Source of the DNA: Sipunculus nudus
Taxonomy: Eukaryota; Annelida; Sipuncula; Golfingiida; Sipunculidae
NCBI GenBank assembly: GCA_026874595.1
Contig: CM049317.1
Span: 49,808,401 to 49,872,400 of the forward strand
DNA length: 64,000 bases
Direction of reading: 5' to 3'
The notes below the pieces were generated by a model, which saw only the letters and a program-made list of their open reading frames with translations, searched no databases and was not told the DNA's origin. The translations under genes and the position numbers were made by a program. Each line of letters begins with the position of its first letter. Positions within the stretch are counted from its first letter, which is position 1. Positions 31,087 through 60,235 of the stretch are shown one piece after another.

Positions 31087-33585
31087 TTATAAAGAATACC
31101 CTTGATAAATTGGATTGTTCACCATAATAGTGGTAATTGATTCACTCGAAATGGAAGCAAAAGAATGACAGATTCCGTTTTCCTGAAAGAAACCGAGATC
31201 GTTTTCATGTGTTTCTGCCTCGCTTTCCACTGAAAGCAAGTGCGGACGGAAGTCATAGCTATCAGTAAAGCATCTGATGTTATGGTCATTTTCCAAAATA
31301 AATTTCTCTTTAATGTTAGTCACAGATGAAATCGCAACTTTAGGGACGTTTGTTGGAAATCTGCGTGGTGGCAAAGGAGGGAGGTCAAGCTTGTTGCAGT
31401 TTTGAAATTTTGATCTCCTATTTTGCTTTCCTAAGCAAATTCTGGTTACTTCATCAGGTGTTTGGTTTTTAGTATATGATACACTTACACTGTCATAATC
31501 ATTGATGTCATCTGCTTTTATTTGTCCACACAAATCTACACCAATATTAGTGTTCGTTGCTTTATCAGATGAATTCATGTTTCTTGTTAGATAAGTTGCA
31601 ACCGACATATCTTCATTCATTAAGCTTATTTGTATTTCGCGTGGTGGTAAAGTTGGACAGTCAAACTGGTTGTAGCTTTGTCGTTTTGACCTCCTGTTTT
31701 GTCTGTTTGATCGAAGGTCCATTGCATTCAGAGATTCAATTAGTCTCACTTCTGGTACATACATACAGCTTCCAGCATTGTTGTGTTCCTGAGTCACACC
31801 TCCTTGTGTAATCTCAGGAGGGTTTCTTTTAAAACAAGTACAAATACAACTACCATTACATTTCCTTTTCTTGTTAGATTTATATTTAGTTATTTAGACA
31901 TATATGTGATATATAGTTATATTATATATTATGTAGTGATATTAGTATATATATATGAATATATATATATTTATATTTATATATATATATATATATTAAA
32001 AACAAATACGGAGTAAATTGTTAGATAACAATTATAGCATAATAAACAATTTGATCACATCTTTTACATCAACCTACTTGTAAACCCCTCGTCGCAACGA
32101 AACACAGAACGCGGTTGTAACAATGGCAAATGGTATCACCAGCAACACAATCGTCCTGCGATAAATGCCTATTATATCTGTAAAGCAAAGGTGCATTGTC
32201 ACATTAATATTTTTAAAGTTAACGGGTCTATATTTTTAGAAGGTCCATATTATGATTACTGTCCAACCTGCCACTGTTCTGAGACCCATCTTGCATAAAT
32301 ACCGAACATGTTGACGCTGCAAACAAAACAAATATAATGCTTTCAGTTTGGACGTAATTCACGTTAACATATTTAAAAAAAATAATCAATGACAGATACA
32401 TACCCGTTGGTTTAAATTCCTGTTCGTCTATGTAATTGCCTGTTTCTTCACTTTCTGAAACGTTGTACAACATATTGCTCTTAGTATTGTTTGTCTCAGA
32501 GTAACAGGGCAATATATTGATGGCCGTAGATGTTCGTGTGCTTCAACACTAAAATTAATGTATGACAGGGAAATATAACTAGGACAAGTGAACTTGGTTA
32601 CTTGTTGTCTTGAATAATTTAGAAATAAAGAGATAGAGATAGTCTTACTCATTTTACAGATGAACTTCGAGGTGCTGTTGCATAAAACTCGAATCCAGGT
32701 TTTGGATTTTGTGTCCAGAACAGCACACGCCAATACAGAATCATGAACTTCGATTAGTTCTTGCCGGCCGAAAAAAGTCCGGTTTGCCAAGAAGCTTTGG
32801 TCTACAGCATAAAATAGACATATTTCTTAAGGCATGGAACATGGGATTTTTCTTTCCATTTTACGTTGCAACACGTATTGGAAGAGATAACACATAAGTC
32901 ACCTTTGTTCAACGCGTTATTTATTATTATCCGATTATACCTTCTCTATGTGAATTGTTCGTGAATCATCTGTACTGAATTTTAGAAAAGAAGAGGGGAT
33001 TAATTGTAAATAAATTACTAGTTCTATTTATGAAATGCCAATCCAGTTTCCTGAGCCCTATGCCTATCAGCTTATTGTGCAGAGGATTCTTTCCATGGAA
33101 CATCATCTCCAGTGCATGATGTAGGCTGGTGAGGTTTACCGCACTGACCAGGTCTCCTCCGAGAGCTTTGCATATAGACCGTGAGTTATGCCAACTGTAC
33201 GACCCACGATGAAGTGAAAACACATGGTCAAGGTAGACGTAGCAGTTCACGCGAGCAATTTCACTTGGACAAATTGATCCTGTGCAAAGAATCGAGTTTT
33301 TGGGAATGAAATATAACGGTTTAATTTAAGATATTTTTTTTTAATTTTACAGAGCGTCCTCTGCTGACCGAAATAAAGGGTTATATTGAATTCATGAGAA
33401 TAATTTTTCTCATGAGAGAAAAGCACAGCAGTTTGGCACAAAATAAATACCTTGAAACTTGCATAAAAACATAGTTGATTCTTGTGTTTGACACATTCCT
33501 TTTATCATAACACGTTCTGTAAAATCGTAGTAGCCGCAAAGTCCTAGCCTATTTCCCTGGTCAGGTGTGGCCGCTAAATGGAATG

Positions 33586-33618
<33 letters not shown>

Positions 33619-34800
33619 ATATAAAGACCACGCATTGCATTGTTTTGGATCCGATCAATTCATGTCAAGTTTAAATCGGTGATGAAATCAAGAAAAAAAA
33701 ATATTTAGAGATAGCAGTCTGTTTCAATCTTCCGAAGCAACCTGAGTATAGTTTTTTTTTTCAAATAAATTCATGTACCTCAACTTTGTTTTACATCAAG
33801 CTAATAAATTGTCCCGCATAGGCATAATTGACTGAATATTGAATATCAAATTTAGTTAAATTATAATAAGTGTATAAAATGTATACCTATCTCTCCGTTG
33901 ACCCAGGTCCAGTTTTTTTGTTGATGCTGAGTCAAGGCTATCCAGGTTGTTTCAAGCCCAAGATCCTCCATTGCTTTAACTTGTTGCTCATGGTCCCTGC
34001 TGTTCATATCTAGTGGTAGCTGTACGGGTGGATCAAAGCTTGCGCATGCGTTATACACCTGTCTCATCGTAACAGAAGCACTTGTCTCTACGTAGCAGTA
34101 AGAGGAGTTGTGAGTGCTGTGACAAACTGGAACATATTACATTAAATTATCATTAGATCTTTAGCCTTTAAATTTCCGTGATTAACCTAATATTTGGCAT
34201 TTCTTTACAACTATATTTTAAAACCCGTGTACATAAATAGACCAGAAATCCGTATATAAGAAAGCAGTTAAAATTCAATACGATGAATTCTTGTGATCAG
34301 GAAGTCCGTCCATTTGTTTTAAAAGAAAATGCATGTAAATGCATGGTGGTCGATCAATAATACATTAGCATTTGTGTATGAGCAAATAATTAAATAATTA
34401 AATGTTATCCTGTAATAATCAAAATAGCACGTTGTAAAAAATACTATGCAATATACTTATACTACAAATTGTGTCGAGTAAACCGAGTTTAAATGCTAAA
34501 AAACGTATGTGTTAGTGTATTTCATATGATTGTCCTTTTTGTATTTGCGCTTGAAATTATAAACCTAGTTTCCGTTTGATTTATTTGAAACATAAACATG
34601 ACACGCGCTGAGTAGGCATGTGAATCGGTGATTAGAAGAATATGTGTCCTGGCGATGTGCCGGTAAATTTATACACAAGGTAAAAGGCTGTTCGTTAATG
34701 TATACTCACGTGGAACAGAATATTCAGCGTCATTTTCACATCTACATACTATGAGGACGGAACAGATGGTCAGGACTGTAGTATATTTTGACGTTTGCAT
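31087..34800 (-). CDS. Gene A: two-CTLD transmembrane receptor, intact
   Basis: Eight coding exons on the minus strand: 34710-34800, 33887-34126, 33451-33573, 33019-33279, 32649-32801, 32404-32454, 32078-32177, 31087-31825. All have GT donors and AG acceptors; together they make 1758 bases (585 residues) with no stop. The protein has a signal peptide (1-21), CTLD1 (about 31-151; MRQVYNACA, TTWIALTQ, NWTWVNGEIG, LGLCGYYD, MFLCKFQ) and CTLD2 (152-289; GSICPSE, SYSWHNSRSICKALGGDLVS, WIRVLCNSTSKFICKM). An 18-residue linker, one span (about 313-333) and a 246-residue tail follow. CTLD cysteines are kept; EPN/QPD and WND sugar-binding triplets are absent. The tail has RSKRQSYNQFDCPTLPPRE, RSKFQNCNKLDLPPLPPRR and terminal NPIYQGYSL. 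A surface recognition receptor signalling through SH3 and PTB adaptors is inferred. Gene B is its head-to-head duplicate. Confidence 0.88.
31925..31998. repeat. TA-rich microsatellite in gene A intron 7
   Basis: Interrupted TA repeats between the transmembrane and tail exons of gene A. The matching intron of gene B lacks it. Confidence 0.9.
33584..33616. repeat. (TA)n microsatellite in gene A intron 2
   Basis: A short TA run 10 bases upstream of the exon 3 acceptor of gene A. Confidence 0.9.
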
Positions 34801-34833
34801 CTTTTTAAATTATTCTTTTATTGTCAGTTCCTG

Positions 34834-34849
34834 TGACCTTGAGTATATA
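34834..34849 (-). promoter_or_regulatory. Conserved proximal element upstream of gene A
   Basis: On the minus strand, 34 bases before the ATG, the sequence is CATATATACTCAAGGTCA: a TATA-like stretch and the nine-base TCAAGGTCA. The same nine bases sit upstream of gene B (56580-56588). TCAAGGTCA is the extended half site bound by monomeric nuclear receptors such as ERR and FTZ-F1/SF-1. Function is inference; presence in both genes is seen. Confidence 0.35.
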
Positions 34850-36960
34850 TGGGAAAGGCTGGTACGCCAAATGGAATTTTGATCTCTGCAACGTCAAAAA
34901 GGAAAATCGTCAAATTCCCACGTTCTCCTTTTTTCGTCTACTGAGCTGTCTGATTTATTGAATAGCAGTTAGACGTAACGATCACTTATGCTCTCAAAAT
35001 CATTTTCCTTTCAAACGAATCTTACATCTATCTTTGTGATGTGGATATAATTTACTCATGGAAATAACAAATATTTTATAACAGCCTAGCCTTCTTACCT
35101 ATGCTTTCTAGTGAACACCTATAATAAGGAGCCAGGATACAGACTTTTTTTCACATACAAACATTTGTTTTTCCATCCTTCTGTGACATGTTTATTCATT
35201 TAGAGGATTTCTATTGGCATACAAAATTATGCAAAGTGTAAAAAGCTTACATATATAACATGCGATAATTGTCGAAGGTCATCAAAATGCGAATACTTCC
35301 TCGTTTTCGTTGTTTGTATAACCACCAAATGTTTCACGAGGGATTATGTAGTATTCATGTGAAATAACTCTGTGTACGTGGGCAACTATGAGTACTTTAG
35401 ATATGACGGGAACGGACTTGTTGAACTAATATCAGAGATATACTACTCTGCGCATCATCTCGCTGGTCAATTAGTGGAAATAGACCTTGTGATAATTGGT
35501 AACATGGGTTTTCTATATGACGGCCAAGTTTGCAGGAAGGCGATATAGTACGCTTTTGCCACAACGAGGAAATGTAACATGCTATTTTCTATAGGGAAAT
35601 TGACCATGGGCGTATTGAACGGGGGTTAGTTAGGTGTGAGGGAATAATTGTTGTGAGGTAATAGTTGCACTTCCTAAAGCCTCATGTACTTATCTATGTA
35701 TATAAAATGAAAAATATACCATCCTTGTGAAGTTCTAGTTACTAGAATGGAAAATTAAAATTAAATTAAATGTTACATGCTTGTCTATTTTTCTGGTAGG
35801 AATATACACTGAAATAAATGATGTCATCATTCCGCTCGCCAAAAACACAAGACGGACTATTGCAGCTGAGAACCTTCCGCCCTTTAAAACACCTTATACC
35901 AGACATAGAAACTACTATCCACATTTCTGGTCTTATTATTATCAATATACGCTTTCTTACTTTCCTCAAGCTAATCGGTGATGGTTTAACTGTGTAGGTA
36001 TATGATACTAAGTCGGGGCGGTCTTGTACTGGTGAAGGTGCCGGGGCTCATGACCGAGAGGTCAGCCACCTACCGTGCCAAACCATTGGGCAAGGTCCGA
36101 ACCGCAAGGATGTCTCTGTCCAGCCAGCATTAGAAATGGGTACCTGTAGATACTGGGAAGGTAACCTACAATTTACTAGCATCTCATCCTGGAGAGGTTT
36201 CTGTCCCAAGTCGGTTCACGCTACAGAATCCGTGATAAGCTCCGGCCTGATAAATCAGTAGGCTCGGATGTGAAAGCCCAACAGACTTTACACATATGAC
36301 CTTTACGATAAAGAAGCCCGTATATGGAGATGAAGATCGAATAATTATTGAGTGGCAGACAGATAACTGATCTACTGACCGTTTGAAGCACCTCGTCTTG
36401 CACAAGGAAGTGTGTTTTTATGAATCCAGTAGAGAAACAGTATTTGTCGACACTGCACGGTAACAAAGGATACAATTGAGCTTTCATACATGGATGTAAA
36501 GATAGCTAAACGTGGTTTCAGCTCTGTTAAGTTAAATATGTGCGCATACGTATAACTGCATGTTGACGCAGTTTGTGATTATATTGGAAAAAAAAGTGCA
36601 CAAGATATCTAATTATGTTGAATATAATTGGAAAAGCACGATTTGAAATTAGGATCAATGTGATAAACACGATTACATTACATGTTAACCTTATTCAACA
36701 GGTTCGATTAACAAATAATCAATTAAATCAGCACCAGCATGAACAAGAATACACTTCCACCAGTTTTTTTCATAACTGTTTACCCAGTTTAAGACCCTTG
36801 ACGTGTTCCGTTCTTGTAGATTTTTTTTTTATGTCAATACTATAGATACAAAATGTCTGTAAATTGTCGCATCTTTAAAGCCTGTTTTCGCATGTTCTAT
36901 GAGCATGGATTAAAAAGAATTGTTACTTGGTTCTTATGTGGAAGGAGACGTGAGCTTAAG
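34850..36960. other. Upstream region of gene A
   Basis: No coding exon supported. Homologous to the region upstream of gene B. Between 35280 and 35560 lies the first of three repeated upstream blocks (CTCGCTGGTCAATTAGTGGA, GGACTTGTTGAACTAATATC). Confidence 0.5.

Positions 36961-37032
<72 letters not shown>
36961..37032. repeat. (TA)n microsatellite
   Basis: About 36 TA units. Confidence 0.95.
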
Positions 37033-37036
<4 letters not shown>

Positions 37037-37458
37037 AAACAGAAGATATTATTATGTCATTTTTTGCAACTTACTATGTTAGTGATCTGTGATAATTTAC
37101 TTACAAATAGTTTAACAAAGCGGTTCTTTATGTGATATAATGGTCAAAACAAGTTTGGTCGGTTTTAGTAAATTCATAAAAGTTTATATCTCTTGTGGGC
37201 CAAATACCTTTAAACTAATTAGAATGTCATAAAACATCGGCCATGAGAAACAGATCAAACGAATGGAATTAATATGATTCAAAACGGAAGGATCCTACCA
37301 AATCCGATAAATCGACAGTCGGTCTCCTCGGAATACTTTCCTCGTCCTATTTGATTAAACATCATGTTAAATCACGTAACCTATCAATTGACTGGCATAC
37401 TGAACAAAACTTACGTAATTCGAATTATGGATAAAATAACTCACTTGACGGGGTTTCC

Positions 37459-37760
37459 TTAAAGCTGAAAATTAGAACGCGGACTGGCAAAGGAATTGCC
37501 CAAAAAACTGGGGTCGCTGTGTCTGTCTGGTCCTTCTGTGACAGCTTTTCTGACGCATCGCTCAACTATAGCTTCTTCATGGTCATATATTCGGTTATAA
37601 CAAGGTTGATTAAACCTGCATATGTAACAAGTGATAATTAGCGAGTGGTTGTAAGTAAACATGCATACCCTTTCCCCATTCATTTGCCATCATTTCACTC
37701 CGTCAAATATTGTGTCTGGGAATTATGTGTTAATCATATCAGACAACCATATGTCCTTGG
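37459..37760 (-). repeat. Block duplicated in inverted orientation at 55000-55276
   Basis: The minus strand here and the plus strand at 55040-55276 both translate from a shared MNGE-V-MF-YNHSLIIT stretch with similar flanks. A third diverged copy lies at 42215-42345 (CCTGCATATGTAACA, ATTATCGAGTGG). No splice sites or long conserved frame support a gene; after about 18 codons the two frames diverge. Confidence 0.55.
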
Positions 37761-38619
37761 GTTTATATGAACGAACTCGTTAAACTGATGCACCTGATAA
37801 CCTAATAATCCAACCAAGATGAGCATTGTATGTTTATTTTGTTTTAAATGACGCCAACCGAGATGAGTATTTTATATTTATCGAATTTGTTTTACGTTAA
37901 TTTTTAAATTACGCCACGTATAATTTAACCAAGCAATTAAAAAAAATGTGTACAACACAATAATTATTATATGGAGATTCCCCAACAGAGTGGTCAGGTT
38001 CGAAATTTAAATAATGTTGTGCTGGAGGTTATGTCCATATAAACGCTTTTGAAAGTTAACTATATAAAAAAGGTGTTAAAATGCACCGCCCGAACGATTT
38101 GATAGATAGGGATCTCTGTAAACTTGGTGGTCGTTTTAAATAATCTTGACAAGATAAGGTGACGCCCGAGTAGCATGGACAGGTCAAATGAATGGCTCTT
38201 TTTTATGCTGTAACTCAATATATTATATACATGTTATACGATAATATAGCGTTTTGAATATTTATATGAGTTTATAATAAATAATTATATCACTCTTTCG
38301 TTCAATCAGCGGAAAACAACATGAAACACTGTCATAGCTATCTCTTCTTTACTCCTTTAATGCTCTATGGTTAGGCTAACTCATAGCAGAAGGACGAATA
38401 TGAGTTTTCTAATACCCGCTCCTGGCTGAAAGATTAGTCAATATCTGAGGTCTGCAAGTCCTGCACACCCACACTGACAAGCAATGTAAATCAATGTGAC
38501 ACATTAATGGATTTTTCTTCACTTTGTAACCTGCTTAGTAGTAATTGCATATTTAATTAATATTTCTGGTTTACTTAACTGGTGTTATTAGTTTGCATAT
38601 ATCATATATGATAATAGGC

Positions 38620-40450
38620 GAGGGGGACGGGGTCAAGATACCCAGACTTCCTCGTTTCACTTGTTTGTATAACACATCCACAAATATTTTTGCTTGGAAT
38701 TACGAATTGATCATGTCAAACATCTATTGTGGGTCTCACCCAAACGGCCTTGTTAGCTAATTTATTAATCTACTACCTTAGCATCTCAATTATTTGCTGT
38801 TTTTTATGTTATTTTATGGGTGCCACAAAAGCATCATCCCGCTGGTAAATTAATATGCAAACATTGAATTAATTGTTAAATGAGGTTTTGGTCTATAGTA
38901 CGGTTGGATTGCAAAAAAGGTGATATAGTACCTAAAACTGCTTGAAAGCACCTTTCCTGGGAAAACAAACTTATAATTGAATATTTGGACAAACATTTAA
39001 CGTTATCTTAACCTGATACCAGTAGCATCATTAGTGCAAGCAACAGCATTGGGCCCATCCTCAGACAAATAAAAATGTTAATTAACGTTTATATATTTAA
39101 TCAGACTATAGTTTACAGGAAGCAGACATATAAATAGAGGGTATATGGTGTTATATGCACGATACAGCCATTCCAGTGTAAGCTGAATGGTCGGTATAGA
39201 AAAGGCATCCAGAGTATACAGATTCTACGCTGATGTTAACACGAGACGCCATGTAAATGCCATGTGTAAGCTGTGTTACATGTATGAGACAGCCATGAGT
39301 GCAAACAACAGAAATGGATCCATCCACAAACAAACATGTTAATTAATGTATCTCTCTTCAATCAGACTACAGTTTTCACGAGGCAGACATGTAAATGATG
39401 TGGGTGTGCTTCTGTATATACGACACAGCTATGTCGGTAAAGGGTTGGTTATACAAATGACATCCATGTTTATTTGGAGTATACTTTGTGGTAAACACCA
39501 GAGAGCCATGTAAATGCAATGTGTAAGCTGTGGTATACACGAGACAACCATTTATTAGTATGTATCTACCTTTCTATGTATATACAAGTATAGTGATTTA
39601 TGAAGGCACAGGAGTGCATGTATGATGATATATTTTGCCATGTACGTGTACCTTATGACCGTCAGACGTTGCTCTTTTCTTCTGAAATAAAAGGGATTGT
39701 AAATCTCAACAAGAGGTAAAACCACATTTGCCGATAACTCAACGCTCTTTATCCTGTATGGCTGTTTATATTGCCGAAACGTCAGTTCAGTTCAGTTAGA
39801 TTCGGCCATATTTTTTCAAGATTTATAACAAAAGTTTGCATAATTTGACAGAGCTCTGTCAAACAGAACACGTGTAGTCTGTACCAGTACCCATGTCGGC
39901 ATGTATTCTGGGAAATCTTTTTCATACAAAGGAGAGAGTATAAAACGTTCTAGGCTATAGGTTGCAGGAGCCATCTGACTACCGAGTGAATAATAATGTC
40001 TTACCGCGAACGCAGTTCGTTTAAGACAAATAATCCAAAATATTGCAAGACAATTCACAATTACTGCGAGAACAGCGATACCAGTTGATGACGTCAGTCA
40101 ATGCGACGTCACACGTCATCGACCTTTGTGACGTTATTATTATGTTCTAAACAGCTCTCGCTACCATGGGCAGGAGCGTTTTTGGGGCTCATTATAATAA
40201 TTGGGGTAAAAGGGCGGAGCATTTGGGCTGTGTTGTATCGGTCAGTTAGGTAATAATCATGTCAAACAACTATGTGGTCTGCCCGAACGGACTTGTTGAA
40301 CTAACGTCAGTGACGTACTTATCTACCAAGACCATGTTGTTCATATCCTGGTCAATTAAAAGGATTATACGTTAACATAATTTTGTTAACTGGCTTTTCG
40401 TCTACATGACGGTCAAGGTCGCTGATAAAAAGTGATATAGTGTCTTTTAA
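38620..40450 (+). repeat. Additional copies of the gene A upstream block
   Basis: Copy 2 is at 38620-38930 (ACTTCCTCGTTTCACTTGTT, CGGCCTTGTTAGCTAATT, ATCATCCCGCTGGTAAATTA). Copy 3 is at 40250-40450 (CGGACTTGTTGAACTAACGT, CATATCCTGGTCAATTAAAA). Between them, units with 'caatcagactatagtttacaggaagcagacat' spacing repeat at 39100, 39360 and 40645. None encodes protein. Confidence 0.65.
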
Positions 40451-40800
40451 AGGCACTATCTGGTTCGCTTGAGCTTGAGCGCTTCTTGCATAACGGCCAA
40501 ATGTTCTTTTGCCAGGAAAACGAATATATGATTAAATATGTATTCAATCACATAATCTCAGCATCATTGACATCAGAGCAGGCAGCAGCAATGGACCTGT
40601 CCTTATACAGTTACAAATGTTAATTTATCTGACGTTAAGCTCTCCTCAATCAGACAATAGTTTTCACGAGGCAAACATGGAAATGAAATGTTAACATTCG
40701 TATTCAAGTTGTGCAACACTTGCAGATAACTCAGGTATCAGAGCAAGCCCTCTTATCCTTTACACCTGTGAATATTGCCGAAATTTGTCAGTTATATTCA

Positions 40801-42720
40801 ACTAAAATTGGGCATATAATTAAGTTATATAAGAAACATGTCTATTCACTTAATATTGGTTAATATAATTCAAAACGCACGATTTTAAAGTGCGACAAAA
40901 TATATGTATTGCCCATGATTTCTTGAAATGGTAGCCTAAATCGAGAGATCCGGTTAACAAATCACCATCTTTAGTTTTATAATTTATAATTCTAGGGATA
41001 ACAACTGCTTTTATGTTTTCAACCACTTCACAAAGTTTCCACAGACTTTTCATTTTTAGAGACAGCCATAACTTACAGACCTCCAGGTCATATGAGTCAT
41101 ATTTGGCACACCTAGCACTTGAAGACACCTACAACCCACTTTACCTTTATTTTAGTATTCCCGATGGTTATATTTAATGCCCTTGCCAACTAGACAACAA
41201 AAACATGTATTACTGACCTTTCTTCAACCTCTGTAGAGCTGGTGTTCAGCGTCTCCAGAAAGATTCTACTACCCGGGATAGCCAGAACGCATTACTGCTC
41301 TTTTGAGACCTGAATGTTCTTTAAACTTATCGTGCTTAAATACATTATTGTAACATTATCATGAATATTTACTGAGAAATATTTTGTTATAAACAATATG
41401 TTATTGCATAAATTTCCAATCAAATTAACGTGTACCAGCTGAAAGTACTTGTGAAGTACTCATGAGTGCAATTTGTGTACTCATTTGCTCAAGTGTTTCA
41501 CAACTCGTACTCAGCTATTTTCAAAGCACTCGGACTCAACTCGGATAATAACTGATGACCAACTTAAAAAAATATCCTAATTAACTTCATTTCTAAATTA
41601 TTACGTTGATAATACTGTATGACTCAATTTCACCAACTTACTTTAAATCCTTCATTTTAATTGATGAAAAAGAATGGCATCCCATGTAGACATTAAAGTT
41701 AACTAGATGTGCCTGGGGTGAGATACCTGAGCTGGCTCTTTCACCATAATGTGTCTCAAGAAAGAAATACAGTAAACCGAAATCCAGCGATGTGTAAGAA
41801 CATACGAACAGATTGGACTATTATCATCTTACCTTTGGCTGGTAATTTTTAAACCAGGTCACTGCACTAGTGGTATCGAACAAGTTTGTACTTCGCCAAT
41901 CATGTGATGCAAAATGGAAGTACTGTAACCCCCCCCCCCCCCCCCCAACACATACAAGCTTACTTGGGCTTACTCTCTTTGTTTCAAACGACCCAAGATT
42001 ATTGAAATTAATGCTTTATTACCTTTGTCATTCAATGCATTTTCCTTTCTGAATGGATTCAATTTTAATTTTTTCTCATAAATAATATGACTTACCACAG
42101 AGTTTCTTAAAACTCAATCAGGGAATATAAACTGCTAATGGATTGACTCATTCGAACCGAGGTCACCTGGCCTCCTTGTTCTCCTGATGCATCACTCTAC
42201 TCTATTTTTCCAGACCTGCATATGTAACACTGGCAATTATCGAGTGGCTGAGAGTAAAAATGCCTCACACTCTCCATTCCTTGTTATAATTTCAGTCCGA
42301 CAAGTATTGTCTTGAAAGATCATATCAGACATCCATAACTTTTGTTGTATTACGCAATTGCGCAGATTGTTGAGAATATGTCCCATATCCGTATGACATC
42401 GTAGGATATTTCGTTAACATGATCCAATTACCGGCGGGGTTATTGCCTCGATGTGTCGTTTTGGGCATTTGTCTGCCGATTCATGTAATGTACTTTTGAA
42501 TAAACGCTGGCTTTAAATAGAAGCCTGCTTTGTATGAAAACCCTGAAAATAAAAATAAAGCACCCCGTTTCTCTGATGAAGTAAATAAGGTATATATCTT
42601 TTTCTTTCTATCGAAAGGAGAGGAACCCACTAGGGGACATATAGGGTAGCTTGTCTTTACTTTGATAGTTGTGTATTTAGTTACTTTTAGTGTTCAACGG
42701 ATACTCAAAGAAAGAGAAGG
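40801..42720. other. Intergenic, nothing firm
   Basis: An open minus-strand stretch at 40850-41128 (YDSYDLEVCKLWLSLKMKSL) matches nothing I know and has no clear splice context. A C-run lies at 41931-41946. At 42215-42345 there is a diverged copy of the 37.6-kb block. Confidence 0.4.
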
Positions 42721-42723
42721 AGC

Positions 42724-43074
42724 ATGGTCAAGCAGTTTTCTATGACCGCCCCTGGTTTCCAGTATGGTCCCAGGCACCCAAGTCATGCATATCAACACAC
42801 GTGGATGGAGCTTTCCTCGATGAGTATCCTGCGTAGTATAACCACGTTGAATTATGTCATGTGCCCTGCGCTAATTATCGTGATATATAAACCATGGTTC
42901 ATTCAAAACAAGAAAATTGCGGTACTATGGTTATATCTGTTAAGTATATTTCCAACGAAATTATGTGTTCATTCCCTTGGGGCAGAAATAGGTTTTATTC
43001 ATACAACATGTTATAGCGTCCAAAAGTCTGAATCGGATGTAGTATTCAATATATACTGTGACCCTGTATTCTAA
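42724..43074 (+). other. 116-codon open frame, unrecognised
   Basis: Starts at an ATG, contains hydrophobic stretches (TTLNYVMCPALIIVIYKPWF, IAVLWLYLLSIF) and ends in a TAA-flanked AT-rich region. No family, no ribosomal or splice context, and no copy in the other arm of the inverted duplication. Chance is the likelier explanation; listed because it is the longest ATG-started frame in this interval. Confidence 0.15.
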
Positions 43075-47940: not shown

Positions 47941-47957
47941 ATCTCTCTCTCTCTCTC

Positions 47958-48004
<47 letters not shown>
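47941..48004. repeat. (TC)n-(TA)n-(GA)n palindromic microsatellite
   Basis: A CT run, a TA core and a GA run form a near-perfect palindrome, which could extrude as a hairpin. Confidence 0.95.
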
Positions 48005-48007
<3 letters not shown>

Positions 48008-48098
48008 AGAACGACAGAAGTTCTCTTGGGAGCAGCGAGCCTTTAGTGTGGCCTGAATGCTTCTTGTTTGTCAATGTAGATTTTTATTAGTGTTTATA

Positions 48099-49301
48099 CA
48101 GTGGAACCCCCCCCCCCCCCCCCTTGCGATCATCCCACTATTGCGACCAACGCACAATTACGACCATTTTGCATGGTCCCGAATTTTTTTTAGTTTATTT
48201 TTGTATAAAAATGACTCAAAATTACGACCACCACTGAATTCAGAATTACGACCAGATTTCCTGGCCCCAGCGCTAATGCGACCCCGCTAATGCGACCACC
48301 GCCGAGAAGTACTGAAACAACATTTGTCACGAGTCAAAGGCTGCGCCTTGTCATAGGCGCAACGAAAGATCAAAGCGGGTAACAAGGTTTCTTAACCCGA
48401 GTGTTAATCTGGTCCCGCATATCTTCCCGACACGATGTCTTCGCTGAGACTCGTTGAGGTGTAGGTTATAGATCAAAGAGGGTAACCATCGGCCTGATTA
48501 CTTAATGAGCCGGTCTATCCTGGGGTCAGATACTAATTGTCCCTCAGTGATCACCTGTATCACAGGTACCCTAAGTGTAGGCCTAATATTTCAATTCATC
48601 ACATTTCGTTAGATCCTCAATGGTAAAATTAAAGACCTAGTTAATCCTAAATGTGTTCATACCTTACTGACACTGAGTATTGAGCACTCAGTAAAATGTA
48701 GAAATAAAGCTTGCATGGGGTGAAAATCCCTCACATTAACTTTCCTGATAGATCGTTGTCAGTTTATTTCTCTACTGGTTATGTTTGCATTGCTGTTAGG
48801 CAACCATGCCTCTGAAAGAGCTCTCCTTGAAGGATAAAGTGGCATTAATCAAGACGGCAACACCACGCGCAGTCAGCACCAAATGGCTCAGCAGTTTAGC
48901 GTCGGGAAAACTCAAGTGCACGCAATATATACTCAAGCGGAAGGCTAAATATATGACAGCCACGTATTATGTTCAATATACATTCAGTAGGTTGTAATCG
49001 TATTGCCTTAGTGTTATTATTTGTTTATCATCAGTCACTACGTATGTGTATGTATATTAATTTTCATCATGAATAAATATGTTCAGCTACACAAAAAATA
49101 ACATTTATAATAAGGGTCCTCTGCTAAGTAAAATATTTTGTTATAATTCACATTAAAGATATGCAATAGATAAACTCTGATACACATTAAATATCAGTGT
49201 GTTATATGCGACCACGGTAAAGGTTTCACAAATACGAACTCCCCCAAATTACGACCACTTTGCTCAGTCCCCAGGGTGGTCGTAATTGTGGGATTCCACT
49301 G
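48099..49301 (+). mobile_element. Tigger/pogo-type DNA transposon, internally deleted
   Basis: Both ends are visible: CAGTGGAACCCC at 48099 and GGGATTCCACTG ending at 49301, flanked by TA on each side (48097-48098 and 49302-49303), the target duplication of Tc1/mariner/pogo elements. Sub-terminal TGCGACC/TTACGACCA words recur near both ends. At 1.2 kb it is half the size of autonomous Tigger elements. Only the transposase N terminus remains. Confidence 0.8.
48806..48985 (+). pseudogene. Tigger transposase N-terminal HTH remnant
   Basis: From the ATG at 48806 the frame gives MPLKELSLKDKVALIKTATP, the start of a CENP-B/Tigger-type helix-turn-helix. The second helix (QQFSVGKTQVHA) lies in another frame (from about 48889), and ILKRKAKYMT (from 48928) is back in the first, so two compensating frameshifts are present. 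The DDE catalytic domain is deleted. Confidence 0.75.
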
Positions 49302-49303
49302 TA

Positions 49304-52300
49304 TGTATAGAGAAACGCAGCCTCCCATCATGAATCACCAGACGATTTTTCGGGTTGCATGGCAACTAGGTATCTAGTTTTATGTTGTCAAGCATGGCCG
49401 ACATGATAAGCATGATTTCATAGCCATGTGAGGTCAAAATCAAGGACAAAGGTCAAGGTCACGGTCACCTCAAGGCCTTAATAGCAGATGATAGCCTGTT
49501 TTTGCACGAAATCTCTCTATATATCTATATTTTGACACAATATCTTAGTTTCAGTGGGAGATTGATTGAATGAAATTCAGATAAAGTAGTTCTCAAAGAC
49601 AAGTAACTTGGTTTAAGGTCGTTGTCATCAGGTATGCAAAACAACCTATATGGTCAGCTTGATCCGTTCTGTGGTAATATAGACGAGTTTGACTATAATG
49701 ATTAATAAAGAGATTCTTTCATTCACTGGCGGAACAAAACATAAAGTTTAATGTTTTAAACCAGTTTCAAAACGTAAAATTAATTTTTCTAAATACCTTA
49801 TGTAGGCATAACAACCAACTCGTTTAGACAAAGAAACCATGGTTATTAAAGATTTTGATGAAATCCTGCTATATAGCAAAGAGGACTTATGCCAATTGAA
49901 ATAATTTACATTTGGAAACGGAGTGACTTGGTCTGATGCGACAAGTTTACACCATTTTGTCATTTTTATTATGTAAATTGTATCTCATGAGTATTTATTC
50001 AGTTTCAGTAAAAAAAAAATCGTTGAGAATCTAAGACATACAAATTTCACAAATTTAAAGGGGGGTCCATTCACCTATAAAGCATGTCGTATTAACACGA
50101 AAAAATTGCCTCCTCCTTTAAAAATAAATTTGTTCCCCCCAAAATATTTCCCTGAAACAGTAGACCGGGCGCGATCTCAAGTGTCAACATAACACTTCGA
50201 TCAGGACTCCACCACAACACGTGTCAATCAAGCGGTGCCCTGACTGACTTGGCCCCGAAAATGTTATACATGTTTCCGCCGGCTGATACATTGCGGGTTG
50301 AGGCTCACAATCGCACCTCCGGTCAAGCGGCCTTGTTATGGTAAAGAGACACACGTGGACTGTGTTCATTAACACGCAGAGCCATTAAAGGTATCAAACA
50401 GCCTTGTGTGAAGTGCTGGGATGGTTTTGATGGGAAACATTTGCATAAAGCCAAACTGAACGGTGAGTTTGAGAGTATACGCAGTATACTGCTCTTAATT
50501 AAATAAGGTCTATAAGCAACTGAATATAAGGCTTTAAATAATGTTTAACATATGTTAATTTATGTTCTACACACTGAATATAGCTAGAGGCTTTGGTCAA
50601 TTATTAACATTGGAGACAAAATGAGCACTTGTCTAAGCTCTGATTTGTTTAATCACATTTGAATAATTTTATTTTTTTAATACATATATAAAAAATGAGC
50701 AGTAATCTCAGCTGTAAAACTAATACACACTAATAAAAAATACCTCAAGAATTAGAATATCCAATAAGTTATAGAAGGATCAAACTTGAGATGAGGAAAT
50801 AAAAGGATTTTTAATATAAATTTTGATTATTTACATAGTATCATGTGACATCTGGTATAGCCATGACTAAACCATTTTTTCTTAATTTTGCAAATGATAT
50901 AAATTAACAAACTGAAACACCTTGAAAATACCTGTAAATTTAGATTATTTTTTTTATATAATATACTGCAGCCTTGTCTATCATTGTTTTGCTTCATATC
51001 ATCCCAAAAAGGATAAATCAATTTTATTCAATTTTTTTTTTTTCATTATTAAGTTTGAAATGAAAATACCCAAAGGAGACTACATGGTGTCCTATGGAAT
51101 GCACTTAGGGTCATTTATACAAGATCCATACAACATCAGTAATTGCAAGGTTATTCCCTGTTACTCATTAACTATTAATTCCCTTTTTCGTTATTTTTTA
51201 AGTTGTTATTATAAACCAATAAAAAAATCATAATTGTTTATTGATATGTTGTTGACCTATACAACTACCAGAGGAGAGGGGTTGGGCACCTTGGGCCAGA
51301 GGTGGCCTGGAAAGAGCGAGAGAGCTGCGCAATATTCCCCGATTAAAGCGTGTATAATTAGCCTGAAAGGTCAAAAAGGGTGACATGCAGGCGACTGAAT
51401 AGGGCTGCTGAAAAAAATATTCAAAGGTTTTTACTTTTCTGATTTAGGGAAATCCTCATCTTATGAACTTCCACATTTTAGTAGCAATTCATCATTTGGT
51501 GGACATTATTAAATGAAATTTTGATCATTTTAACACCTTCACAATTCATAATCCAAAATGTAGCTAAATCCTTGAACAAGAACGATTAGATATAGAAAAT
51601 TACATTATTCAGCTAGTTGACACATCATCCTTGGGAGGGAGGGGGGGGGGGTGTAGGGCAGAGTTGAAGCCCATCCAAGCTGAGCTAGGGCAGATGCCTG
51701 ATTGCATAACACAGACCTGTATAAATCAATGTACTAGGTGCGGTTGATATAAAAAAAGTTGACTTGGTCTGTGTAAATTGAAAAAAAATACTTTTCTTAA
51801 TGATTTCTTTGAATTTTTTAGCAATTCCTTTGATATTTCAGCTACTAAAAGATCCAATCTTCATGTGTATATGCTTGCTGTCAAAATGAAATCAACAGTG
51901 TTAATAGGAAACAAATGTACCGTAGTCGGAATTGGCTAGCATTTAAAATAATGATTTAACATTTATGCTAATAACCTAAAAATTAAAAAGTTTGATCAAA
52001 TTTCAAGTATACAATTAAAACTAAGTTTTAATATTGATATGTGTATGAAATAAGCTCATTAGATTAAATCATTATCACGTTAAGAGAGTTTTTTTATTCC
52101 CTGATTTGAACATTGCTCCCATTGTCACTCTCACCATCTTCTTCATAATTGTCAATATCGCTAATGTCATCAACCTCTGTATCATTATCCTCATGAAACA
52201 GATTATCCGGAACTCGCTCTCCATAAAAAAAAAATAGGAATGAAATTTCCTCCTTCATCCAACCATGTTTCAGGGATCCCATTCATTTATATGAGCCCTG

Positions 52301-52880
52301 TGCGCATTTGCCGACATATGGTTGACAAGTTTGACCCTAGAGGTTTTTCTGCTCAAGGACATAGAGGCAGGGAAGAAGGTTGGCAGCGTCAAAGGAATTG
52401 AGCTTAGACAGTTTGCTTTGCTTTTCTCTGTGGAATCTTGTTGGGAAGAAGTCTGTGCCAAACACGGTTCATATCTTGCCAGTTACTCCCAAATCCATTA
52501 TGTGAAATTACGTAAAGTACTCAAAAGTACTCATAAAAGGGTTCGTTTGTATGAGAATTGTCTATGTACTCGAATATTGTTGGAGGTAAATGTTATTTGG
52601 AAGAACGTGCCTGATCTCAAGTTCCGAGTTCCTAAGAAACTACTCACCAGTACGGGTACTTTCTGGACGAGTATTTTAGACTAGATCTTGTAATTATTAA
52701 ACTTAAATATGAAAGATGGTTATATGTTAATTAGATTTGTGCTAACTTTTCAAGTAATCATGTGCAATACAAATATCCTGTTGCAAAATCGTGTTTGTTG
52801 AATTATATCCATTATTAGTAGGGAATAGATAGTTGTCTTATATAACTTAACTAATATGCCAAATCTAATTGAACAGATCT
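49304..52880. other. Non-coding stretch between transposons and right arm
   Basis: No gene supported. A 120-codon open frame at 52322-52684 (plus) and overlapping frames on the minus strand (52094-52461) are AT-poor relative to the surroundings but unrecognised, possibly transposon remains. A G-run lies near 51636-51650. Confidence 0.35.
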
Positions 52881-55800
52881 GACATGTTTCCGCAAAATAA
52901 ACAGCCATATAGCATAAAGAGCGTTGAGTTATCGGCAAGTGGAGCACAACTTGGAATGTTTTAGCTCTTGGTGAGTTATAACAATACCGCTTATGGTGCA
53001 AGAAAAGAGAAACGTCAGAGGGTCAGTAGGAATTATAAATGTACCGCCTCAGTACTTAACCCGCAATATGTTTGCAAAGATTTTTTTAACGGATATTTAT
53101 GTAAAACAGTGGTGATATATTTAGTATGCATCCTCTCTTATTTGTCAGCATCTTTAACGCAATAGGATGTCTAACTAAATATAAACACCAGATTATCTCT
53201 TGGTACAGCAAATTCTTATATAATAGACGATGTCAGTCTCATCCGACTTGATATTTTGCCTTCCGGGTCTTTCTGGCCTTTTTATTTTTGAAGCCATTCT
53301 CGTCTCCCTGCGGAGCATACAACCCTAGCAACCATATCAGACATATCAGGCGCTAGAAGATTATTCGTTCCACATTTGCCTGCCGCCTATGATCAGTACC
53401 AATTCACTCCTTGGTCGATAGAGCGGCCTTCTTTTAGGTCATGAGGAGATGTCAAATATATCATTATAGAGCATTTTAACGTTGTTCTGCATACTAGAAA
53501 AAAAACTCTGCCTCTCTTAGAAAAATATTTTTTTTTTCCAGACAGCAGGCTGTCTCATATGTAACACAGGACACACATTGCATTTACATTTTCTTATGTT
53601 TACCACAGAGTATACTCCTTATGTACATAGATGTCTCTGGTATATCTCACCTTTCGCAGACATAGCTGTATCGTGTATACAGCAGCATACAAACTTTATG
53701 TACATGTCTGCCTCGTGCAAATTATAGACTGATCGAAGAGAGCTAATTAAGTTTACACATTTATTTGTCTAAGGCTAAGCCCATTGTTGTTTCTCATGAT
53801 GATATAGGTAAAAGAGATTGAGATAATGTTAAATGTTTGAGCAAATATTTAATAATATATTTGTTTTCCCAGGCCGTGTAAGTTCAAATTGCAACTTTCA
53901 CCGTCATAAAGACCATGGCCTCATTCAACAAATATTACACTGTTTGCAAATAATTCCAACTGATCAGCGAGATAGTGCGTAGGCGGCACCAATGAAACAA
54001 GGTAAAAACAACAAATGGATTAGATGCTATGTAGTATATTAGTTAATTAGTTTAACAAGTTCGTTCGGGTCAGACCCACATAAATGTTGACGATATCTAA
54101 TTCCAAAAGAAAACATTTATGAATGTGAAATACAAACAGGTAAAACGAGGAAGTCTGAGTATCTTGAACCACCACTCCCCTCACCATTTACCACATGTTG
54201 TATGAACGAGCTAATTATACTCAGCACACTTTTATAGGACTGCCATAAATGTAAATTCACAAGGCCAATACTATTGCGCGGGTTACTTAGTTAAGAATAA
54301 ACTATTTAGGTGTCGCATTAATTTACATAAATGTTACTGTATGCATGACGTCCAGACCTTTGATATAAACAAGACTTTCAACCAGAAGTGGGTTTTAATA
54401 GACTGTTTGATCACATTCGTCCTTTTTTATACGAAAGCTTCTCCAAAGAGCATTAAAAAAGTAAAGATGAGACAGTTATGGAAGTATTTAAGTTGTTTTG
54501 CCCTCCCTACTATTGCCGGATATATAACTATTTATAATAAACTAAAAGCATAAGAAAGATCCACTCATTTGACCTGCCTATGCTCCTAGTATATAACCTG
54601 ATATTATATGTAAGCATTATTTTAAAAGGCTTTCAATTTTACATAGGCCCTGTCTATTAAATCGGTCGGACGATACATTTCTTACACCCTTTTTTTTTCA
54701 TTTTCAACAACATTTAATTTGCTTTCTGAAGCCTTTAGAAAACATAACCTCCAGCATTATTACATTATTTTAATGTCAAACCAGATCATTCCGTGAGGAA
54801 ACCTCCAAACCACAATTGTTGTGTTTTACAAACATTTTTTTTCAATCGGTTTCTAAATGATGTGTGGGAGTCATTTTGAAAAATAAAGTAAAACAAACAC
54901 GTTAAGTATACAGTGCTTATTTAGTCTGGTTTATGAGGTCATCAAATGCAAAAGTTTAGCGAGTGCGTTCATATATACCCAAGGACATACGGTTGTCTGT
55001 TATGATAACCCAACATTTGTCGGAGTGCAATGAAAGCAAATGAATGGGGAAAGTGTGGGCATGTTTATTTACAACCACTCGCTAATTATCACATATGCAG
55101 GTTTAAATAACTTTGTAATTATCATATATATGACTATAGCACTATGGTACAGCGATACATCAGTTAAGCTGCGACAGTTGACAAGACAGGCCAAGGAACC
55201 TCGGTTTGTAGGGGCAATTCCATTGCCCGTACCCGTCCGTATTTTGAGTTTTCAGGAAACCTCGTCAAGTGAGTAGTTTTATTCATAATTCGAATAACAT
55301 TAGCTTTGATCTATATGACAGGACATTGTCAGCTTACATAATTGAAAATTATGTTTATCACATAGGAAAAAGGAATAATTTCAAAACGACCGACTGTATT
55401 GTCGCTCAGTAACATAATCTGAATGGTAAGGGTACTTCAGTTATGAATCATATTAATTCCATGGTACGCATTTGTTCGATATCATTGGTGCAAATACAAT
55501 TTTGATCCTCTGATGTGATAAAATTAACATCGTCCATTGTTCTTCTTTATCTTACTTTTTGGTTCTATAAGTATTTTAAGAGGGATATTATTTCATAATT
55601 CATAATTTATAAATTCATTATGTATTTCATAATGATTTCTTACGGCATAATAACCATGAAACTATTATCATTATCTAGTGTTCCTCTACGGTCATAACAC
55701 ACAACTCCTGCTGGTGTAGAACGAGTTACTTTATATGGTATTTCATACAATTATATTTTCCTTGATTACATGCTATCTTTGTGTCCAATGATGTAAAATA

Positions 55801-56516
55801 AGGTCGTCGTTTCAGAGTGGCAAATATCCATGCTTTGTAATTATCCGTCCATACTAAAACAAATACGATCTCCACCTTCATTTACAGACTTTGATATCGT
55901 ATACCTACATAGTAAAAACATCACCGATAAGACCCAGGAAAGCATGAAAGCGTATAATGACATTAATAAAACCATGGTCTTATTAAATTATATGCATGGT
56001 TTTACTGCCTGGCACAAGATTCTGTAAAAAGGTGGGAGGTTCACAGTTACAATAGTCCGTCCGGTGGTTTTGGAGAGCGGAATGTTGACATCATTTATTT
56101 CAGTGTATGTTAACTAGTGCCCGGTCAATGCGTCCATGGTCATTTTTCCAATAGTCAATAACATATAACATTTCCCCCCTGTGCCAGAAACGTACTGTGT
56201 CACCTTTTAGCCATCTTTGCCGTAATATAGAGGAAACCCTCAGTTTCCAATTATAACAATGATTATTCCCATAAATTGACCAGCGAGATGATGCGTAGGT
56301 GGAGTCCTTATAATCAACACATTTGAAACGATGTTAAGGGGGTAGAGTAGTACATCATATCAGTTCAATAAGTCCGTTTGAGTCAGGCCCTAAACAATAG
56401 TTCAAGTACACATTTGGGTGACATGAATTATATATAATCCTCGTGCAAACATTTGTGGATGATAAACACATAACGAGGAAGTGTGAGGATTTCGACAACC
56501 CTCGACAACTATCGTC

Positions 56517-56517
<1 letters not shown>

Positions 56518-56552
<35 letters not shown>
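56518..56552. repeat. (TA)n microsatellite in the gene B promoter
   Basis: About 17 TA units ending 47 bases before the gene B ATG. Gene A has no such run in the same place. Confidence 0.95.
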
Positions 56553-56554
<2 letters not shown>

Positions 56555-56567
56555 GCAGACAAGAATT

Positions 56568-56588
56568 TCCCATATTTTCTCAAGGTCA
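56568..56588 (+). promoter_or_regulatory. Conserved proximal element upstream of gene B
   Basis: CCCATATTTTCTCAAGGTCA lies 11 bases upstream of the ATG. Its TCAAGGTCA (56580-56588) matches the element at 34834-34842 of gene A, and the flanking CCCATAT is shared too. A nuclear-receptor half site is possible. Confidence 0.35.
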
Positions 56589-56598
56589 CTTCAAAAAG

Positions 56599-59500
56599 AT
56601 GCAAACCACAACAAACACTAGAGACCTTATCGTTTGTTTCGTCTTCATCCTGTGTATATGTGGAAACGACACGGAATTTCCTGTTTCACGTGAGTATACA
56701 TTCACGAACATTCGTATACCGTGTGTATAAATTCACCGTCACCGAGCCAAAAAAAATTGTCTGATCATGGCATTCACTAGGGAGGTAAGCGCGTGTAATG
56801 TTTTTTTTTTTTTAATAAATGTGTAATAAATCTAAACGAAACGCGATTGAATATATCGCATGCACATACCAGAACCACAATCATTTGAAAATTAACCATT
56901 ATATAAACACTTTTTTTGCATTTGAACACGGTTAAATCGACACCATTCGTAGTATAAATATATTCCATATCTATTTTACAAAAATGTATTTTGATTTTTA
57001 AAGTTTGTTTATATCAAATGCTATTGTTTGACTCAGTGGCCAATAGGCATTTACATGCTGGTGTTGATAGACTTCCTGATCGCATTAGCATAACAATTCA
57101 TCGTGTGCAATTTAAACTTTTTCATTCTTATATATGATTTTTTGTCTCTATTTATATATTAACGTTCATTAAACAATCACAAATATCAAGTCCATCAAGG
57201 AAATATAAAGGCTAAAGGTATAATAATAATTCTATATAATTATTTTTTTTCCAGTTTGTCACAGCATTCACAACTCCTCTTACTGTTACGTGAACACAAG
57301 TGCGACTGTTACGATGAGACAGGCGTATAACGCATGCGCAAGCGTTGGTCCATTCGCTCAGCTGCCAGTTGATATCAGCAGTAGGGATCATGAGCAACAT
57401 ATCAACGTGATGGAAGAGCTTCGGCTTGAAACAACTTGGATATCCCTGACTCAGCATCAACTAAATGACTGGACCTGGGTCAACGGAGAGATAGGTGGAT
57501 ATTTAATGCACATATTATTTTATTATATTTAATATTTGACATTCAGTCAATTATTATACAACCGGGTCATTTAATTGATCGAATTTACAAAAATTGAGTT
57601 ACATGAATTTATATTTATTACTATAGTCAGGTTGCCAGAAAGAATGCCAAGGCTAACAGACTGCGATCTGAATAGGAATATTTCGTGATATAACCGTATT
57701 TTTCTTAACATGTATCTAATAGGTTCAGAACAATGAAGACATTTTTTGTACATATATTTCCCCATTTAGAGGCCACACCTGTCCAGGGGATTAAGCTAGG
57801 ACTGTGCGGCTACTACGACAACGGATTACGGGCTTTAGTAAAAGGGTTGTGTCATACACAAGAACCAACTATGTTCTTATGCAAGTTTCAAGGTAAAGTG
57901 CTAAGCCATACCCTTGTGAAATTCCCTCATATGTGTTTTGACAATATAATCCCTTTTCCGATTTGCCAGAGGATTCCAGTTAGAAGTACATGTAAACTAA
58001 AAAGTCTTAATTAATATGCCTCTAAAAAGCATTTGTTTTAAATTAAATCAAATATCTTTCTTTATAACTCGTTTATCATCTCCCAAGCTCGGCATTTTTT
58101 TTGCAGGAACCATTTGTCCGAGGAAAGTTTCTCGTGTGAACTGCTACATCTTCAAAGATCGTGTTTTAACACTTCATCATGGGTCGTACAGTTGGCATAA
58201 CTCACGGTCTATATGTAAATCTCTTGGGGGTGATCTGGTTAGTGCGGAAAATCTCACCAGTCTTCATCACGTTCTCAAAGTGTTATTCATTAAAAAGAAT
58301 GAGCTGGTAGGCATAGGACTAAGGAAAATAGATTGGCATTTCATAGATGGAAGTGGTAATTGATTTACAATGTGTCTTCTCTTCATTTATAAGGTCCATT
58401 CAAATAATAATTGTAAAGGTAAAATTGGATAATACGTAAAGCGTTGAAGAAAGATTAATTATGTGTCATATGTTCTAATAAATGCTGCAACGTAATAGGC
58501 AATAGTGATAGCCAAATAATATATCCAATGCTCCATGACATATAACAAAGGAAATATGTTTATTTTATGCTTAAGGTCAAAGCTTCCTTGCAAACCAGAC
58601 TTTTTTCGGCCGACAAGAACTAAATGAAGTACATGATTCTGTATTAGCTTGTGCTGTCCTTGACGTAAAAACCAAGACCTGGATTCGAGTTTTATGCAAC
58701 CTCACCTTTAACTTCATCTGTAAAATGAGTAAGAACATCATTTTCTTCAAAACTATATAATACATAATCTTGTTTAGTTGTCACAGTTTTACTTTCCCAT
58801 AATCAATTAATTTAGTTTAAAAGCACACGACTATTTATTGCACCAATATATAGACCCGTGTTCATTCCAAGACAAATAAGAGTAATATATTACACACCGT
58901 TTCAGAAGGTGATGAAACAGGCCGTTACATAGACAAACAGGAATTTAAATGGGCGGGTTTGTATCTGCGATTTTTCAATTCATTAATTAAAAAAAGACCC
59001 TATACTAAGAGCACTAACATTCGTTGTTTGCAGGGTCATTGTTTTCTGCATTGATGCAAAAATAATGTTTTTCCTCGACCCAGAACTGTTGCTTTCACCG
59101 TAATATAAAATGGACCTTCTAAATATAACTATGGTTATAAATATAAATTAGACAAAGCACCTTTACTTTTGCGTTTACAGATACAATCGGCATTTATCGG
59201 ATGGCGATTGCGTTGCTAGTGATATCATTTGCGATTGTCATCGCCGCTTTGTGTTTTACGTTGAGACGAGGGGCTTACAAGTAGGTTAATGTAAAAGATG
59301 TAATCATACTGTTTATAATGCAATCTGACACTTTTTTCTGTATTTGAATTGTTTTAACAGTATAGCTTTATCTAAATGGTTATATCCAATGTATTATACA
59401 ACTATATATAAAAAATTCTCAATAACTAAAACTTAATCTAACAATAAAAGGAAATGTAATGATAATTTTGTTTCTGTACTGTCCTTGTTCTACAAGAAGC

Positions 59501-60235
59501 ACTACTGAAATTACAAGTGGAGGCGTGACGCAAGAACACAACAATGCTGGGGGCAGCACGTGTTTGCCTGAAATGAGACCAACGGCATCTCTGAATGCAA
59601 TGGACCTTCAATCATACAGACATACGAGGAGGTCAAAACGGCAGAGCTACAACCCATTCGACTGTCCTCCGTTGCCACCACGCGAAATACAAATGTGTCT
59701 CAAGAATGCAGATACGCCGGTTGCAACAAATCTTGCAAGAAACATAAATTCATCTAATAATGCAAGGGACACAACTATTGGTTTGGCTTTGTGTGGGCAA
59801 ATAAAAGCAGATGACAGTAATGATTTGGACAATGTAAGTCCATCATATAATAGGATCCGTTTACCTGAGGAAATGGCCCGAACTTGCTTAGAAAAGCAAA
59901 ATGGGAGATCAAAACTACAAAACTACAAACAGCTCGACCTCCCTTCTTTGTCCCCACGCAGAATTCCAATAGACGTCCATAAAGTAGAGAATTCATCGGT
60001 GACTAACGTAAAGGAGAAATATAAAGTGGAAGATGACGAGAACATCAGATGTTTTGCTGATAGGTTTGACTTCCGTCCGGACTTGCTTAAAGTGGACAAT
60101 AGAGCAGATACACATGAACACGATCTTTGTTTCCTTCAGGAAAACGTCTTCTGTCAATCGATTGCTTCCATTTCAAATGAGTCTATTACCACTGTTATGG
60201 TGAATAATCCAATTTACCAAGGATATTCTTTATAG
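56599..60235 (+). CDS. Gene B: two-CTLD transmembrane receptor, intact
   Basis: Exons 56599-56689, 57255-57494, 57770-57892, 58107-58355, 58576-58728, 58906-58956, 59181-59280 and 59497-60235, all with GT/AG borders. They total 1746 bases (581 residues). In order: signal peptide (1-21), CTLD1 (31-151; SSYCYVNTS, RQAYNACAS, TTWISLTQHQLNDWTWVNGE, LGLCGYYD, MFLCKFQ) and CTLD2 (152-285; GTICPRK, SYSWHNSRSICKSLGGDLVS, DWHFIDGSG, WIRVLCNLTFNFICKM). Then a linker, a span MAIALLVISFAIVIAALCFT (309-328), RR stop-transfer, and a tail of about 246 residues. The tail has RSKRQSYNPFDCPPLPPRE (381-399), RSKLQNYKQLDLPSLSPRR (473-491; YKQL is a YxxL) and NPIYQGYSL at the end. Several N-glycosylation sites lie outside. 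No calcium/sugar triplets. Exon 4 is 12 bases shorter than in gene A. Confidence 0.9.

Follow-up and report, generated by a model that had tools for sequence, protein, structure and literature searches.

A 64,000-nucleotide stretch of the genome of the sipunculid Sipunculus nudus (assembly GCA_026874595.1, contig CM049317.1, positions 49,808,401 to 49,872,400; called the window here) contains two genes, A and B, which appear to encode type I receptors that would stand at the cell surface, each with two C-type lectin-like domains (CTLDs), one membrane span and a cytoplasmic tail of ~245 residues. With a probability that we put at roughly 0.6, A and B are working lectin-like receptors that arose through an old inverted duplication and that are coupled through their tails to endocytic or signalling adaptors, probably in the service of immunity, a function that we infer; they may capture foreign or altered particles and take them up.

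The models of the two genes, given in window coordinates, were reconstructed from the DNA sequence alone. Gene A lies on the minus strand (34800-31087) and encodes 585 amino acids; gene B lies on the plus strand (56599-60235) and encodes 581. Both consist of eight exons (in A, 34800-34710, 34126-33887, 33573-33451, 33279-33019, 32801-32649, 32454-32404, 32177-32078 and 31825-31087; in B, 56599-56689, 57255-57494, 57770-57892, 58107-58355, 58576-58728, 58906-58956, 59181-59280 and 59497-60235). Exon lengths are 91, 240, 123, 261 (A) or 249 (B), 153, 51, 100 and 739 nucleotides, so that seven of the eight are equal between the copies and only exon 4 differs. The intron phases are the same in both genes (1,1,1,1,1,1,2), every intron has GT-AG ends, and neither rebuilt reading frame contains an internal stop. 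The start codons are 21.8 kb apart and point away from one another. Alignment of the two proteins yields 585 columns, of which 581 are ungapped and 394 identical. In the two tail ends (31087 and 60235), exon number, equal lengths, equal phases, GT-AG introns, protein lengths and freedom from stops, these models agree with the initial annotation of this DNA, which had described two intact genes.

The exons divide the proteins into recognizable parts. Exon 1 (A, 34710-34800; B, 56599-56689) would supply a signal peptide: a hydrophobic stretch is present at the N-terminus of both proteins, and it exceeds the hydropathy threshold used for the span in B (residues 10-29) and falls below it in A. Exons 2 and 3 encode CTLD1 (A, 33451-34126; B, 57255-57892), and exons 4 and 5 encode CTLD2 (A, 32649-33279; B, 58107-58728). 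The gene models place a juxtamembrane segment in exon 6 (A, 32404-32454; B, 58906-58956), which is followed by the transmembrane span in exon 7 (A, 32078-32177; B, 59181-59280) and the tail in exon 8 (A, 31087-31825; B, 59497-60235). Hydropathy indicates a single hydrophobic span in each protein, at residues ~307-336 in A and ~302-334 in B, giving both the order CTLD, CTLD, transmembrane span.

A Pfam scan of the two proteins returned no domain besides Lectin_C, with whole-protein scores of 34.1 bits for A and 53 bits for B. When the domains are scored singly, three of the four exceed the cut-off of 22.6 bits (A CTLD2, 28.3; B CTLD1, 24.4; B CTLD2, 36.3). CTLD1 of A is called a CTLD because it is identical to its counterpart in B at 88 of 122 columns and because its six cysteines are kept. 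Indeed, all 12 cysteines of the long-form set, six per domain, are present in both A and B (in A, residues 32, 41, 58, 123, 138 and 148 of CTLD1, and 155, 164, 188, 264, 279 and 287 of CTLD2); they presumably pair. Pfam, the cysteines and hydropathy (together with the likeness to B in the case of A CTLD1) thus bear out the arrangement of two CTLDs, one span and a long tail that had been proposed earlier. The EPN, QPD and WND calcium/sugar motifs have no match in A or B, and their absence speaks against a classical sugar site.

A and B are mirror copies within an inverted duplication, whose left arm (30300-40991) pairs with a right arm at 52692-60974 (read as 60974-52692). Blastn joins the arms by ten pieces that are 68-77% identical and collinear except for two small overlaps in the right arm; the duplication is old. 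On either side of the pair lies a decayed relative whose tail end faces that of its intact neighbour. Relic C (25978-28443, plus strand) retains pieces of the exons CTLD1a and CTLD2a, each split by a frameshift, and a piece of CTLD1b; relic D (63270-63806, minus strand) retains a CTLD1a with one frameshift and two stops, and a CTLD1b piece. The resulting arrangement, C> <A B> <D, points to the joint duplication of two genes, after which one member of each pair died. Beyond the arms there is one shared piece (26040-26145 versus 63687-63583, 75.7% identity), which belongs to relics C and D, and it is this short match that suggests they may be sisters. A 60-bp minisatellite of ~24 copies (61570-63004) lies in the interval from B to relic D, in which the remainder of the relic would be expected.

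The introns of the pair are 70.4% identical across 1748 aligned bases and contain 49 gaps, of which 34 would shift a reading frame; the coding sequence contains a single gap, which is 12 bp long and in frame. The Poisson chance of finding zero coding frameshifts is 1.8e-15. Without selection, ~7.5 nonsense changes per copy would be expected, and none is seen. Synonymous divergence (dS, 0.33-0.40) is close to the intron divergence (0.376) and is therefore a fair neutral yardstick. The ratio of nonsynonymous to synonymous divergence (dN/dS) for the pair is 0.44 by NG86 (bootstrap 0.34-0.57), 0.50 by LWL85, 0.51 by YN00 and 0.50 by maximum likelihood, a pairwise value that belongs to A and B jointly and cannot be apportioned between them; by part, it is 0.36-0.44 in the ectodomain and 0.48-0.60 in the tail. 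The lack of any disabling change in either copy, in turn, speaks for constraint on both. Of the columns conserved among other members of the family (described below), A keeps 15 of 19 and B 16 of 19 in CTLD2a, and 16 of 21 and 17 of 21, respectively, in CTLD1a. The earlier proposal that both copies were kept by selection after duplication is thus supported by intron versus coding gaps, by the nonsense count, and by a dN/dS that is not near 1; judged from sequence, A and B would be duplicates maintained by selection.

The comparison with eukaryotic sequences was confined to the organism's own genome. Searched with B at E values up to 10, it yields 79 matches (counting the exons of B itself and those of A), all on C12, which is the chromosome of the window, C9 and C15. 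With a single CTLD2a exon as the query, there are at least 76 matches at E<=0.001 (at least 57 on C12, 6 on C9, 5 on C15, 4 on C7, 3 on C13 and 1 on C17, with relic C counted twice) and at least 49 CTLD2a exons at E<1e-5, including those of A, B and relic C (at least 40 on C12, at least 5 on C9 and at least 4 on C15); these are lower bounds because 150 of the 257 candidates were scored. In the loci that were read, a subset of the family, the exon order CTLD1a-1b-2a-2b followed by span and tail is the same, and several members in the genome carry stops. A tree built from 13 CTLD2a exons places A and B with a cluster at 71.6 Mb (support 99/98, with a long-branch warning there); a tree of 8 CTLD1a exons gives the same grouping with weaker agreement (84/88). 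By these comparisons, A and B belong to a large clustered family that gains and loses members. Within a receptor cluster at C12:50.10-50.34 Mb there are near-identical duplicated stretches (L034/L035 and other pairs), which are a sign of either very recent segmental duplication or an assembly artefact.

The tails of A and B match no Pfam family, and neither contains a hemITAM (acidic-YxxL), or an immunoreceptor tyrosine-based activation (ITAM) or inhibition (ITIM) pattern; a receptor of the hemITAM/ITAM/ITIM kind was rejected on this ground. A model of the A tail by itself has a mean predicted local distance difference test score (pLDDT) of 31.8, with 244 of 245 residues below 50, and offers no fold that can be used; this fits disorder but, in a model made without an alignment, shows little. 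The tail is probably unstructured. What the tails do contain is short motifs. NPxY binds PTB domains and acts as an uptake signal, NPF binds EH domains, and phosphorylated YxE[IV] suits SH2 domains. Motif scans place a C-terminal NPIY in A (31105-31116, minus strand) and in B (60206-60217, plus strand). B also contains NPF (59651-59659, plus strand), as do members on C9 and in the 71.6-Mb cluster; at the position of NPF in B and some other members, A has NQF (31663-31671, minus strand). PxxPxR occurs once in B and at two places in A, one of which is a pair of overlapping matches.

For comparison, sequence downstream of 13 other loci (L039-L051) was examined, with tail exons recognized by eye and by motif; one was recognized at seven (L039, L040, L044, L045, L046, L047 and L049). 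A C-terminal NP[IV]Y is present in three of four other full-length tails (C12 at 50.07 Mb, C15 at 31.09 Mb and C12 at 48.30 Mb, but not C9), and a membrane-proximal YxE[IVT] in all five of the other clusters that yielded a tail (C9, C12 at 50 Mb, C12 at 71.6 Mb, C15 and C12 at 48.3 Mb). The shuffle chance is 0.001-0.0025 per tail for the former and 0.03-0.04 for the latter, values that are descriptive only because the motifs were spotted before testing. Tails of different clusters align poorly, at 19-24% to B, yet these motifs recur. A known tail domain was rejected as well, and a KRAB match in the tail of L044 (15.5 bits, under the cut-off of 20.4) was taken as chance. The description of the tail as adaptor-type in the initial annotation stands insofar as short docking-type motifs are present, and fails insofar as no Pfam domain is matched. 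No description of tail motifs shared across the family was seen in the open literature surveyed, a survey that mostly excluded subscription journals.

The initial annotation had also called the layout not standard among vertebrate receptors and had named no ortholog. The layout is not unique, given the large own-genome family with the same exon order and the CTLD+CTLD+TM receptors already reported in Elysia sea slugs (PMC7663992); with an expanded family in the same genome, having no ortholog does not equal being alone. The Elysia receptors share the two CTLDs and one span, and there is more than one gene in both E. cornigera and E. chlorotica; they are reported from transcripts (PMC7663992), and the comparison with A and B is one of layout. 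The oyster receptors CgCLec-HTM and CgCLec-TM1 likewise join a CTLD receptor to a cytoplasmic motif, and in CgCLec-HTM the span is C-terminal of the CTLD (PMC12842671, PMC13027682), but they have one CTLD and a hemITAM, whereas in A and B the CTLDs number two and the hemITAM is missing. Razor clam ScCTL-1 has several CTLDs and a C-terminal span, with four domains (d1-d4) rather than two (PMC12842671). The mannose receptor family (MRC1, MRC2, PLA2R and the IgY receptor) shares the type I span and tandem CTLDs (PMC12321717), and provides the best PDB matches; A and B differ in that their CTLDs number two, their tail is long instead of short, and neither a cysteine-rich nor an FN2 domain was found in them. 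More broadly, C-type lectin (CTL) repertoires are expanded in bivalves, and molluscan CTLD repertoires are large (PMC10140915). The layout of A and B is therefore already known in kind, and the pair adds new members to it, not a unique layout.

A working scheme can be proposed from these features. The CTLD pair would engage a ligand carried by a microbe, a particle or a cell, and would do so without a classical calcium-sugar site. The tail would then recruit PTB-domain adaptors at the C-terminal NPIY and SH3 proteins at PxxPxR, to which the NPF found only in B would add EH-domain proteins, with the outcome that bound material might be internalised or a signal passed on. CTLD receptors of molluscs take part in recognising and taking up microbes: the bivalve CTL CgCLEC-TM2 binds microbes even though its motifs are aberrant, and its knockdown lowers phagocytosis (PMC12842671); CgCLec-TM1 signals via Syk (PMC13027682). 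We infer an immune role from such relatives and from the turnover of the family; recognition of food, symbionts or gametes would be the alternatives.

Several observations weigh against this scheme. CTLD1 of A scores 16.8 bits (E 0.012) in Pfam, under the cut-off. The dN/dS of 0.44-0.51 is only moderate, and its bootstrap interval includes 1 for the signal peptide and for the juxtamembrane segment plus span. No tail was recognized at six of the 13 loci (for one, the tail lies just past the stretch, at C12:50114940), and the frame is broken in three of the seven recognized tails (L039, L040 and L045). Some members have only a degenerate form of NPxY, which reads NSFY in the C9 tail and NHVY in two 50-Mb members, L056 and L057. 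The membrane-proximal YxE[IVT] is absent from the tails of A and B, which may thus have lost a signalling role. Finally, short motifs are weak evidence of binding, and the pLDDT of the A tail proves nothing about disorder.

Of the other explanations, the one that survives best is possible, if unlikely: the same receptor make-up could serve a non-immune task such as gamete recognition, adhesion, food-particle sorting, or symbiont or self recognition. The lack of classical calcium/sugar motifs would suit it, and the Elysia CTLD+CTLD+TM genes have been linked, by expression only, to feeding and plastid recognition (PMC7663992). Against it, families of immune receptors usually form large clusters in which genes are duplicated locally and some copies are broken, although the same is usual for some gamete proteins. 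A further idea concerns why the pair was kept, namely by subfunctionalisation, with A (two PxxPxR, NQF) and B (NPF, one PxxPxR) using different adaptors. The presence of NPF in the C9 and 71.6-Mb clusters implies that NPF is probably ancestral and was lost in A, which together with the other tail differences would favour such a split; yet motif differences of a single residue can arise by chance between copies that differ at about one third of their residues, and we consider this distinctly improbable. That A and B are classical calcium-dependent, sugar-binding lectins of the mannose receptor family is very improbable: the top PDB matches of the A ectodomain are CTLDs of that family (IgY receptor, 3.5e-6; MRC2, 0.0021), but the sugar motifs are missing, the CTLDs number two and not eight, and membership was rejected because Pfam gives only Lectin_C in either protein, with no cysteine-rich or FN2 domain. 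Least probable of all, and rejected, is that one or both copies are recent pseudogenes still open by luck, since, despite the decayed adjoining relatives and the stops in several family members, the zero coding frameshifts (versus 34 in introns), the missing nonsense changes, the neutral behaviour of dS and the dN/dS all argue otherwise.

Elsewhere, the genome contains a GC-rich element in dispersed copies, whose two-CTLD frames have no introns; one copy of it was read (L052-L054, G000:C5:66532000-66546000). Its GC content is 47-52%, versus ~36% in the window. Two frames with two CTLDs each lie side by side in it, one of 382 amino acids (Lectin_C, 65.2 bits) and one of 441 (40 bits). Another of its frames matches CARD at 38.3 bits, and a further one matches MULE transposase (43.4 bits) and FLYWCH (32.1 bits). 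Across contigs C1-C17, frames of 359-382 amino acids reach nearly equal Lectin_C scores in dozens of cases. The element looks like a mobile or virus-like element carrying immune-type domains. A search of IMG/VR for close relatives of the 441-residue frame gave one pattern match and none that was confirmed. In a blastp comparison with nine sequences, its frames resemble A along both domains and in the same order (E 3.6e-7 and 8.1e-6). However, an ordinary single-CTLD frame used as a control (L005) is nearly as good, scoring 22.5 bits on the CTLD1a profile (versus 24.6 and 22.9) and 19.0 on the CTLD2a profile (versus 27.3 and 23.3), and matching B at 8e-5. A common origin of the element's frames and the A/B family is possible on these comparisons, and is not established because this control is not clean.

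Other features of the window include a CTLD-like exon at 15484-15807 (minus strand), seen by eye and without a Pfam match, which may belong to another CTLD gene. Two minus-strand regions (9813-12806 and 22164-22550) contain frames that, by eye, resemble remains of a reverse transcriptase and endonuclease of the long interspersed nuclear element type, and a plus-strand frame at 4204-4743 has a sub-threshold match to a MULE transposase (13.3 bits, cut-off 27.6).

A wider picture, which we consider quite unlikely in its entirety, would make the family an undescribed, chromosome-clustered innate repertoire, in which many diverging two-CTLD ectodomains are set on tails that have preserved nothing but docking motifs (YxE[IV], NPF and C-terminal NPxY), with turnover by local and inverted duplication and by decay; the intronless frames of the GC-rich element, of possible common origin, would then perhaps be soluble decoys or copies. 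Returning to A and B as working receptors, the pair is a clean, intact and constrained duplicate whose decayed neighbours serve as an internal control. Among the papers surveyed, few molluscan CTLD membrane receptors come with both a gene structure and a readable tail. The tails of this family can be tested motif by motif, beginning with the C-terminal NPxY in uptake and the adaptor split between A and B.

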